From contig NC_089980.1 in assembly GCF_036417845.1 (NCBI RefSeq), forward strand, positions 59,766,501 through 59,830,500: 64,000 nucleotides of DNA, written 5' to 3'. The position numbers and the translations under genes are program-made. Shown here piece after piece: positions 58,620-63,250 of this stretch; position 1 is the first letter of the stretch, and every line of letters starts with the position of its first letter. Under the pieces are notes generated by a model that had not been told where the DNA came from, did no database searches, and worked only from the letters and a program-made list of their open reading frames with translations. Source of the DNA: Apteryx mantelli. Its lineage: Eukaryota; Chordata; Aves; Apterygiformes; Apterygidae.

Positions 58620-59034
58620 ATGGTGATCCAGTTTTTTTTTTTTTTATTTTTTTTTAAGCTATTTTTAGCTGATGAGCTCCCCGCTTTTGGCATAAAGTCT
58701 TGTTATTTCTTTACTGTGACTTTGCTTTTGTACCATTCAGTTTTATTCTAATTCCATTGCTCCCAGATTGTCTAGCTGTATGATATTGCAGTTTTGCTCT
58801 GCGTTAATGACCTCCCAGGCTCAGATTTCCAGCAGATTTCATCAGTGATCTCTTAATTTCTGGACTAAGTCATTAATGAAAGCACAAAACCAAGACTGTC
58901 CCAAGTCCTCTGCTAGCAGTCTTTCTGCAACCTGGCACTTCCTTGGTAGCCATGCCCTTATCTAGTCAATAATTCAGTTGCTAATCCCCATCTTATCCAT
59001 CTAGCTGGTAATTTCTCATGGGACACTGTATCAA
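58620..59034 (-). mobile_element. Older antisense CR1-like LINE, left part (interrupted)
   Basis: Diverged reverse complement of the CR1 reverse transcriptase 3' region. Landmarks include TCATTAATGAAAGCACAAAA and GGGACACTGTATCAA at the right edge. The same element resumes at 63125 with sequence expected to follow directly, so the 59035-63124 insert splits it. Confidence 0.65.
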
Positions 59035-59220
59035 ATTGCTCCTCGGCCTTTTGGCTAAGATCAAGTGTAGTATATGTTCTTATCAGTTTAATATCTGATA
59101 CATCCTTGATGAGAAGACTTTATTTTAAATGGGTTTGCCCATGGGAGTTGGACCTGGCATTTGCTCTCTCTGCTCTGTGGATTGTCCCAGTACTGCAGTG
59201 CCTCCAGGAACGGTGCACCA
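59035..59220 (+). ncRNA. U2 spliceosomal snRNA-derived sequence (retro-copy)
   Basis: The first about 71 bp match vertebrate U2 with about four changes, including the branch-site-pairing block (GTGTAGTA at 59065-59072) and the TCTTATCAGTTTAATATCTG stem region. The last about 35 bp, including CCTCCAGGAACGGTGCACC, also match closely. The middle (about 59106-59185: Sm site and stem-loop III area) is strongly diverged, and the Sm-type run is degraded to GGGTTTGCCC. I see no U2 promoter element upstream, since the flank is antisense CR1. It is almost surely a pseudogene carried by the chimera. Confidence 0.85.
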
Positions 59221-60112
59221 TTTTTATTCACCAAGTCAAGGAGTTGAGGGAAGAGGTCAGCAGACTGTGCAGCGTCAGGGAGGTTGAGAAGGAGATCGAC
59301 CAAATCTTCTCCAAGACTCTGCAGCTTCAGGAGCCCGAACCTCAACTGTTGTGGAGAGGCAGGCAGAGTCTGTGCCTATCAGGTCAGAAAGTGGAAACTC
59401 CTAGGATGGTGAAGGCAGGAAGCTGGTGACTTCTGGCACCAGGAGGTGGGCTCAGGCTGCTGTTGTACTGGAAGACTTGTAGCTCTAGAATAGGTTCCCA
59501 GGCCTCGTAGATGTCGAGGAGCTGGGAACAGTCTCAAATGGAGCACTGGGGCCAGCTGAGCCTCAGCTGCACAGGAGCACTGGGAGGAAGAGGCCAGGGC
59601 TAGTAGTGGGAGACTCCCTGCTGCAGGGGAAAGAGGGCCCCATCTGCTGACTTGCCATCTAGGAAGGTTTGCTGCTTGCTGGGGGCTCACATCTGGGATG
59701 TTGTGGAGAAGCTGCCAAGGCCTGTGTGGCCCTTGGACTATAACTCCCTGCTGCTTTTCTGTGGGCTCCAACGATACTGCCAGGGGAGACCTGGAAAGTA
59801 CCAAATACGACTACATGGCTCTGGGGGTGATGGTCAATGGCAGGGGGGCCCAGGTGGGTTTCTTCTCTATCCTACTGGTGAGGGGGAAGGGCCAAAGGAA
59901 GACCAAATGGATCCTATGGGTCAACAACTGTTTGTGCAGCTGGTGTTGAAAGCAGGGTTTCAGTTTCTATGATCATGGGACCTTCTTCAAGGACTGACAA
60001 CTGCTAGGTAGAAATGGGATCCACCTGACAAAATGAGATAAGAGTATCTTTGCCAACAGGCTGACCAACCTGGTAAGGAAGGCTTTAAACTAGGAATGAC
60101 AGGGCAGGGAGA
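59221..60112 (+). pseudogene. CR1 ORF1 remnant: coiled coil plus GDSL-esterase domain
   Basis: It begins inside the coiled-coil part (ELREEVSRLCSVREVEKEID), in frame with the U2 head. The esterase-like domain shows the nucleophile motif VVGDSLL (GDSL at 59609-59620), the GSND block at 59764-59775, and a degenerate DGVHLT-type motif that here reads NGIHLT near 60013. In CR1 this domain is an SGNH/GDSL hydrolase of uncertain role in the ORF1 ribonucleoprotein. Frame changes and stops break the reading, for example around 59640-59700 and 59970-60030. Confidence 0.75.
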
Positions 60113-60289
60113 GAGTGGCCAACAGTCAAACAAGGAAGTAGTGGATGGGGTTGGCGGCCAAAGAGTCTGGAGTGATGTAAACAGAAGGGACCTCTTAACA
60201 CAACAGGGCTGAAGTGGAATCACCCCAAGTGCATGCATGTAAACAAGGAATTGCCTGTAGGATCACATTATGGATAAAGCTTTCATGCC

Positions 60290-63090
60290 CTTTCTAGGAA
60301 GACAGTACACTGGAGTGCCTCTCTCAAGTGCCTGTACAATAATGCACACAGCATGGTGAGCAAACAGGAGAAATTAGAAATCTGTGTGCCCTGTGCTACG
60401 ATCTCATTGGGATCTTGGAGACATGGTGGGATAGCTCACATGACCGAAATGCTGCAATGGAGGAATACGGGCTCTTTAGGAAGGACCAGCTGGGATAGCG
60501 AGGAGGTGGAGTTGCCCTTTATGTGAGAGCAACAGGAATGCATGGAGCTCTGCCTGCGGATGGGTGAGGGGACAGCTGAGCGCTTATGGGTCAGGATTAG
60601 TGGGCAGACTAACATGAGTGACATTGCAATGGGTGTCTGCCACAGACTGCCTGATCAGGAAGAAGTAGAGAAGGCCTTCTTGAGACAACTGGAAGAAGCT
60701 TCATGTTTGCAGGCCCTGGTCCTAATGGGGGATTGATATCTGCTGAAGGGACAACACAGCAGGGCACAAGCAATCCAGTAGGTTTCTGGAACACACTGAT
60801 GACAACTTCCTTACACAGGTGATAGAGAAGCCAACAAGAAGAAGTGCTTTGCTGGACCTCCTACTTAAAAACAAAGAAGAACTAGTATAGGATGTGAAAG
60901 TCAGGAGCAGCTTTGGCTGCAGTGACCATGAGATGGTGAAGTCCATGATCCTGTGAGGAGGGAACAGGGCAAAAAGCAGGATCACAAGCCTGGTCTTCAG
61001 GAGAGCAGATTTTGGTCTGCTCAGGGACCTGCTTGGAAGAATCCCATGGGATAAGACCCTGGAAGGAAAAGGGGCCCAAGAGAGCTGGCTGATTTTCAAG
61101 GATCACCTCCTCCAAGATCAAGAATGGTCCATCCCAACAAGCAGGAAATCAAGCAACGGCAGCAGGAGGCTTGCAGGGATGAACAAGATGCTCCTGACTA
61201 AACAGATACATAGAAAGAAAGCATACAACAGGTGGAAGCAGGGACAGGTGACCCAGGAGGAATATAGAGACACCATCTGAGCACACAGGGATCGGGTTAG
61301 GAAAGCTAAAGCCCATCTGGAGTTGACACAGGCAAGGGGCATGAAGGGCAACAAGAAAAGGCTTCTGTAAGTACATAAGCAGCAAAAGAAAGGCTAGGGA
61401 AAACGTGTCTGCTGCTGAATGCTGAATCTGGTGACAAAGGACATGGAAAAGGCAGAGGTGCTTAATGCCTTTTTCACCTCAGTCTTTACTGGTAAGACCA
61501 GCCTTCAGGAATCCCCAGCCCCTGAGATCAGAGGGGAAGTCTGGAGCAAAGAAGACCTATCCTTGGTGGAGGAAGAGCAGGTTAAGGAACACTTAAACAA
61601 ACTAGACATACACAAGTCTATGGGACCTGATGGGACACAACCACAAGTGCTTAGGGAGCTGGCCAATGTCATTGCAAGGCCATTCTCAATCATCTTTGAA
61701 AGGTCATGGCGATTGTGGGAGGTTCCAGAGAACTGGAAGAAAGCAAATGTTCCCCTATCTTCAAGAAGAACAAGGAGGATCTAGGAAACTACAGGCTGGG
61801 CAGCCTCACCTCCATTCCTGGGAGGATGATAGAGCAACTGATCCTCCTGGAAACCATTTCCAGACATGTGAAGGACAGGAAGGCAATTGGGAGTAGTCAG
61901 CATGGATTTACAAAGGGGAAATCATGCTTAACCAACCTAATAACCTTCGACGATGAGACAACTGCCTTGGTGGATGAAGGGAGAGCAGTGAATGTTGTTT
62001 ACCTTGACTTTAGTAAGACTTATGACGCTGTCTCCCATAGTATCCTCACAGGCAAGCTGATGAAGTACAGGCTAGATAAATAGACAATGAGGTGGACTGA
62101 AAACTGGCAAAACTGCCAGGCCCAGAGGGTTGTGACCAGCAGCATGAAGTCCAGCTGGAGGCCAGTCACTAGTGGTGTCCTCCAGGGATCGATCCTGGGG
62201 CCAGTCAGGTTTACCTCTTCATTAATGAGCTGGATGACAGGACAGAGTGCACCATCAGCAAGTCTACAGATGATACAAAACTGGGAGGAGTGACTGACAC
62301 ACCAGATGTTTGCCCTGCCATTCAGAGGGACCTCAACAGGCTGGAGAAATAGGCAGAGAGGAACCTCATCAAGTTCAGCAAAGTGCAAAAGCCCTGCACC
62401 TGGGGAGGAATAACCCCATGCACCAGTACAGGCTGGGAGTTGACCTGCTGGAAAGCAGCTCTGCAGAGAAGGACCTGGGGATCCTGGTGGACAAAAAGTT
62501 GAACATGGGGCAGCAATGCGACCTTGTGGCAAAGATGGCCAACAGCCTCCTGGGCTGCATTAGGCAGAGAGCTGCCAGCAGGTCAAGGGAGGTGATCCTT
62601 TCCCTCTAGCACTGGTGAGGCCACATCTGGAGTGCTGGTCCCTCTTCTGGGCTCCCCAGTAGAAAAAAGACATGGACATACAAGTCCACAGGAAGCAAGG
62701 AGCAAGGAGCAAAAGGCCACAAAGGTGATTAAGGGACTGGCACATCTCTTATATGAGGAGAGGCTGAGAGAGCTGAGACTGTTCAGCCTGGAGAAGAGAA
62801 GGTTCAGATGGATTTTATCAAATGTTTATAAATATCTGATGGAGCCAAGAAGATGGAGCCAGACTCTTCTCACTGGTGCCCAGTGACAAATTGAAATATG
62901 AGAAATTCCATTTAAACATAAGAAAACAATTTTTTGCTGTGAGGATGGTTGAGCACTGGAACAGGTTGCCCAGAGAGGCTGTAGAGTCTCCATCCTTGGA
63001 GATATTCAAAAGCTGGCTGGACATGGGCCTGAGCAACCTGCTCTTGGTAACCCTACTTGAGCAGGGGTTGGACTAGATGATCTCCAGAGG
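60290..63090 (+). pseudogene. CR1 ORF2 remnant: AP endonuclease and reverse transcriptase
   Basis: Endonuclease pieces include RISGQTNMSDIAMGVCHR and LVLMGD near 60715-60735. The linker and RT follow: EVLNAFFTSVFTGKT, SMGPDGTQPQVLRELANVIA, SSQHGFTKGKSCLTNLITF and VVYLDFSKTYDAVSHSIL. The catalytic box, normally FADD in CR1, reads STDD at 62263-62274: both aspartates survive but the two residues before them are changed. The C-terminal part includes YEERLRELRLFSLEKRRFR and EHWNRLPREAVESPSLEIFK. At least a dozen stops and several frameshifts make it non-functional. Confidence 0.85.
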
Positions 63091-63124
63091 TCCCTTCCAA
63101 TTCCAGCTATTCTGTGATCCTGTG

Positions 63125-63250
63125 AAATGCTTTTAATGACATCTAGACAGAGGAGATTTACTGCAGCTCCTTTGACCTGAAAATCTTTTCTTGAAGAAAG
63201 CTATCAGTTGACACAAAGGACCTTTGGCATGCTCTTGCTTTGACTTAAAG
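63125..63250 (-). mobile_element. Older antisense CR1-like LINE, right part
   Basis: Continuation of the element at 58620-59034: AAATGCTTTTAATGACATCT, then GAAAGCTATCAGTTGACAC and GGCATGCTCTTGCTTTGAC. These match in order the antisense CR1 segment after GTATCAAAAGC. Confidence 0.6.

Follow-up and report, generated by a model that had tools for sequence, protein, structure and literature searches.

In the window, by which we mean the whole 64,000-nucleotide stretch of the Apteryx mantelli genome that was analysed, a copy of U2 snRNA was found joined to a CR1 LINE. The features of this locus are as follows:

59033-59036, + strand: possible 5′ target duplication AAAT, overlapping U2 nucleotides 1-2 (weak alone)
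59035-59219, + strand: full-length U2 snRNA retrocopy, corresponding to nucleotides 1-187 of the genome's own U2 with 2 nt deleted
59220-59228, + strand: T-rich filler ATTTTTA, plus TT that is possibly part of CR1; not present in the 3′ flank of the U2 gene on contig C37
59227-63124, + strand: decayed CR1 LINE, 5′-truncated inside ORF1, delimited by blastn against the genome's CR1 copies
61700-62080, + strand: relic of the CR1 ORF2 reverse transcriptase (Pfam RVT_1, E 1.1e-8)
63109-63124, + strand: CR1 3′ terminal octamers, ATTCTGTG ATCCTGTG, read from the sequence
63125-63128, + strand: possible 3′ target duplication AAAT (weak alone)

Within the window, the only Rfam match above the gathering score was to RF00004 (59035-59223, model positions 1-192, 115 bits, E 1.7e-23). 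The presumed functional U2 genes of this genome form an array of seven copies on contig C37 that are mutually 99-100% alike. An alignment of 59035-59219 with nucleotides 1-187 of the C37 gene showed 84% identity from end to end. The complete U2 joined to CR1 on the same strand was present as predicted. The copy in the window was changed at 12 of 28 CpG-site positions and at 16 of 157 others. Relative to human U2, the U2 gene of the array (C37:610219-654179) presumably differs in the 3′ half, and this would account for the uneven look of the window copy's divergence. The flanks of the C37 gene (60 nt 5′ and 73 nt 3′) showed no resemblance to the flanks in the window, which identifies RNA rather than the gene region as the source of 59035-59219. 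For the same reason this copy was rejected as a U2 snRNA gene, and a 3′-extended U2 precursor was ruled out as the template because the 3′ flank of the C37 gene was unmatched in the window. Additionally, a 130-codon frame (59037-59426) stays open across U2 into the CR1 ORF1 relic, which is probably due to chance.

The original prediction had U2 and CR1 abutting directly; this did not hold, as 7-9 nt (59220-59226 or 59228) at the join could clearly be assigned to neither side. This filler is absent from the 3′ flank of the U2 gene, and CR1 relatives align only downstream of it. Five CR1 copies from the same genome (L018-L022) matched the window by blastn from 59227-59231 onwards and differed upstream. 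The first stretch of the CR1 part is probably ORF1, judged by known CR1 ORF1 sequence. The CR1 3′ terminus proved normal, as predicted, ending in octamers at 63124 with the RVT_1 relic lying within the CR1 part, although the RVT_1 model is a general reverse transcriptase model and not CR1-specific. Of the two ATTCTRTG units at 63109-63124, one was exact and one had a single change; the octamer 5′-AUUCURUG-3′ is described as typical of amniote CR1 in the accessible part of PMC5729268. The fold of the CR1 3′ hairpin (-18.6 kcal/mol) was no better than that of shuffled sequences (z 0.04). No Pfam match to an endonuclease domain was found in the ten broken pieces of the CR1 part that were scanned, and no viral-contig relatives of the reverse transcriptase were confirmed. 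The snRNA 5′ end is complete, the LINE is 5′-truncated, and the two adjoin on the same strand, which are the features that define an snRNA/LINE chimera.

Searches of the 1.50-Gb assembly (408 contigs) revealed at least 21 snRNA/CR1 fusions, comprising nine with U1, three with U2, two with U4, five with U5 and two with U6; as each genome search scored 19-48 candidates, these counts are lower bounds. All 21 had the snRNA and CR1 on the same strand, and their apparent CR1 starts differed. The RNA part aligned from snRNA nucleotide 1-6 in 20 of the 21, and from nucleotide 13 in L053. The U2 fusions were the one in the window, L009 (U2 1-106) and L010 (U2 1-87); a DNA search with the U2 gene, for which 26 of 26 candidates were scored, was included. 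These were the three top-scoring U2 copies outside the C37 array. L014/L038 was rejected as a fourth U2/CR1 fusion since 425 nt separate the parts.

The U1 fusions were L067-L073, L079 and L111. Rfam matches to U1 numbered 40, of which 12 were gene copies on contig C3 and 28 were solitary; 18 of the latter were fetched. All eight fetched copies with 90.8-95.0% local identity were followed by CR1, as opposed to none of the ten with 75.5-79.7% (Fisher p 2.3e-5 for these 18 Rfam-listed copies). A later U1 DNA search, in which 40 of 50 candidates were scored, led to four more loci being fetched; L111 (85%) was fused and L110, L112 and L113 were unfused. Four of five U4 matches were fetched, and these were L093 (U4-CR1), L095 (U4/U1/CR1), the presumed U4 gene (L096) and an unfused copy (L094). 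The U5 fusions were L097, L101, L102 and L103, together with the copies on contig C344, which were counted as one event (L098); the U5 copies L104-L106 carried no CR1 fusion. Nine U5 matches are spread across the 2.8-Mb contig C344 (C344:289673-2714722). Three of the nine were read (L098, L099 and L100) and had common flanks, and this U5/CR1 fusion has apparently been multiplied by duplication.

Two of 15 U6 matches were fused (L058 and L053). In the U6 survey of the genome the best match reached 63 bits, and an intact U6 gene did not appear. U6 copies may therefore have been missed, 19 to 2 should not be read as a fair comparison of rates, and a bias of CR1 against U6 is not established. SRP RNA gave four gene-like matches and one weak match (L108), all of them free of CR1, and 7SK gave one strong and one weak match in the genome. 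Among 66 copies, fusion to CR1 was seen in 19 of the 28 whose local identity was at least 0.82 and in one of the 38 below this value. Short conserved stretches score high by this measure and account for several of the nine unfused copies in the upper group. Faint translated CR1 matches at three of 46 unfused loci (L085, L038 and L062) were excluded from the fusion count. Outside CpG sites, the snRNA part had diverged by 10.2% at the fusion in the window and by 2.1-13.2% at 16 others, which indicates that the fusions arose over a long period.

A T-run of at least 5 was present at 14 of 20 joins tested, namely at 14 of 18 joins with U1, U2, U4 or U5 and at neither of the two U6 joins. Each segment tested reached 3 bases into the end of the snRNA and 8 bases into CR1; the segments of L095 and L053 were trimmed by hand, and L111, which has TTTT at its join, was outside the 20. 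The number expected per 20 joins was 0.15 on average in random CR1 windows and 1.1 in genomic flanks, with maxima of 4 and 6, respectively, in 2000 draws each. Equally long runs of A, C and G were found at 1, 1 and 2 of the 20 joins. No T-run reached 4 at the joins of L068, L071, L095, L058 and L053; the L071 join carried an A-run instead. In L010 and L102 the T-run lies partly within the terminal snRNA bases. The U1, U2 and U5 genes encode no such T-run at their 3′ ends, as seen from the gene flanks. A T9 lies just downstream of the U4 gene, so the T-run of the U4 fusion L093 is not a clean case. The longest T-runs at joins were 20 and 39, and these may have grown after insertion.

Target duplications were clearer at some other loci than in the window, where AAAT alone is not convincing. 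GATAAG (L010) and TGGTTC (L067) each enclose the RNA and CR1, and each includes bases of the last CR1 octamer. Duplication length averaged 4.2 compared with 3.3 for permuted pairs (p 0.008; 10 of the 21 loci, with 3′ ends set by hand). No clear target duplication was found at L069-L072. Directly 5′ of its U1 copy, L070 has a repeat of the U1 5′ end (ACTTACCTG), perhaps through target microhomology or a restart.

The structure in the window very probably arose in one retrotransposition event, during which the CR1 enzyme left CR1 RNA for U2 snRNA. The CR1 protein would have nicked the target and started to copy CR1 RNA at its 3′ octamers. About 3.9 kb on, inside ORF1, the enzyme would have left the CR1 template; copying would then have resumed at the 3′ end of U2 snRNA and run to its first nucleotide. 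The expected product is U2, a T-rich filler and CR1 in one orientation. CR1 would repeat such jumps with spliceosomal RNAs, mainly with the Sm-class U1, U2, U4 and U5 in these finds. The fused structure and its recurrence were observed directly, as were the common strand, the differing breakpoints and the T-rich joins. A CR1 template switch onto an snRNA had been one of two readings originally predicted, and it is supported, and recurrent, given that a single locus among the scored hits carries this join and 20 further fusions have other joins.

Ligation of an snRNA to a 5′-broken CR1 RNA by an RNA ligase, with the chimeric RNA inserted as a single template, would give the same order, the same orientation and a single insertion, and in the available text of PMC13174262 it is mentioned alongside template switching for U6/L1. 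We consider it unlikely here, as the T-runs would require an additional tailing step and the tripartite L095 (C4:59665710-59665850, minus strand) has the form predicted by a jump. L095 consists of U4 (1-70), then U1 (108-153), then CR1; the U4 and U1 alignments share an overlap of 8 nt, in which 5 nt (AAACT) are identical in both genes. The internal U1 piece thus meets U4 1-70 at a short stretch of microhomology, which supports jumping, and from its sequence L095 reads as a double jump. We infer that the enzyme jumped rather than that two RNAs had been ligated beforehand. A second tripartite locus, L053 (C1:151457168-151457268, minus strand), contains U6, then a 5S rRNA-like piece, then a CR1 3′ tail.

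Independent insertion of CR1 and a U2 pseudogene that came to adjoin by chance is highly improbable, even though adjoining CR1 is lacking in 19 of the 22 Rfam matches to U2 outside the array: only 7-9 nt lie between the parts, which share a strand, and the same structure recurs at 20 other loci, including the best-scoring non-gene copies of U1, U2, U4 and U5. The other reading originally predicted, that the locus belongs to an undescribed U2-headed CR1 lineage which spread together with its head, is just as improbable in this genome, and nothing in its favour was found: in a junction search (query 59035-59300; 40 of 51 candidates scored) one locus in this genome spanned the join and the remaining matches covered U2 or CR1 alone, the CR1 start differs in every fusion, and the sole multiplied fusion is the U5 case on C344 with its common flanks.

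Under the template-switch reading, the T-runs suggest either U-tailed snRNA templates, whose oligo(U) tail was copied along with the snRNA, or an addition of A to the end of the cDNA by the enzyme, ahead of the jump or in the course of it. A model in which an A-tailed cDNA anneals to internal U-runs of the snRNA was considered and set aside, since by eye most breakpoints lie off such runs. The snRNA breakpoints were 83, 115, 119, 151, 156 and 156 in U1 and 99-112 in U5; breakpoint 106 of U2 in L009 adjoins an internal U-run. According to the part of PMC5069555 that was available, oligo(U) tails are typically 6-8 nt long on aberrant RNAs, snRNAs included. The same portion describes the snRNAs that DIS3L2 binds in human cells, whether mature or partly trimmed, as mostly free of U tails, which counts against the U-tail version. 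We tentatively propose, while regarding it as somewhat doubtful, that the CR1 enzyme prefers Sm-class snRNAs with a non-encoded 3′ oligo(U) and that a U-run is a common landing signal, which would also explain the preference of L1 for U6. If so, snRNA/CR1 fusions would be genomic fossils of snRNA uridylation.

An upstream flank (GGTTCAGACCAAAGGTCC-like) was common to the old U1- or U2-like copies L037, L041, L044, L045, L077, L078 and L085, and downstream flanks were similar among L036, L037, L039, L046 and L076. Nine of 406 pairs upstream and six of 406 downstream scored above the best shuffled pair; one pair in each set (L046/L050) consists of two overlapping loci. A genome search that used one such flank (73 nt) yielded two loci only. 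It is as if ancient U1- and U2-headed elements lay within one repeat, reminiscent of SINEU. SINEU is a short, multi-copy crocodilian SINE with a U1- or U2-derived head and is tied to Tx1-Mar. The fusion in the window shares with it a U1/U2-derived head; as a single 4-kb locus this fusion was rejected as a SINEU, which is short and multi-copy with a shared join between head and body. The predicted kinship with crocodilian snRNA-headed SINEs is weak, since SINEU is tied to Tx1-Mar and is not known to be tied to CR1.

The fusions resemble mammalian U6/L1 chimeras, as these are described in the text available, in having a small RNA at the 5′ end followed by a truncated LINE, mostly in sense orientation and as single events. 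L1 is stated to switch predominantly to U6/U6atac, the L1 being inverted in its chimeras with U1 and U2, and small-RNA chimeras are also recorded in the L2 and RTE clades (PMC4476161, in part). The accessible portion of PMC13174262 catalogues 253 L1 chimeras (U6 70.9%, 5S 10.5%, U3 8.5%) and places U1, U2, U4 and U5 among the known L1 partners; the words CR1, chicken and birds do not occur in that portion. In contrast to the L1 chimeras so described, the joins here mostly carry fillers rich in T, the LINE is CR1, and U1, U2, U4 and U5 make up 19 of the 21 fusions found in a survey that was uneven across RNAs. Another LINE clade, CR1, is thereby joined to Pol II snRNAs, and such fusions may explain the gain of snRNA copies where a LINE needs its own 3′ end.

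In birds, a turkey U6/CR1-like copy shares with the U2 fusion an snRNA beside CR1; it is a single 5′-truncated U6 with an assembly gap, on which its authors came to no definite conclusion in the part of PMC4476161 available. Among the open-licence full texts listed for U1, U2 or snRNA generally, none on an snRNA/CR1 fusion was seen beyond this turkey case. For PittSINE of passerines, a template switch of the CR1 reverse transcriptase to tRNA has been proposed (PMC5729268, in part), which is likewise a proposed CR1 switch onto another small RNA. PittSINE has a tRNA head and became a SINE family, whereas the fusions described here are single insertions with snRNA. The T-rich joins yield a testable rule on the choice of a second template by LINE enzymes, which bears on the possible ways in which SINEs gain their heads.
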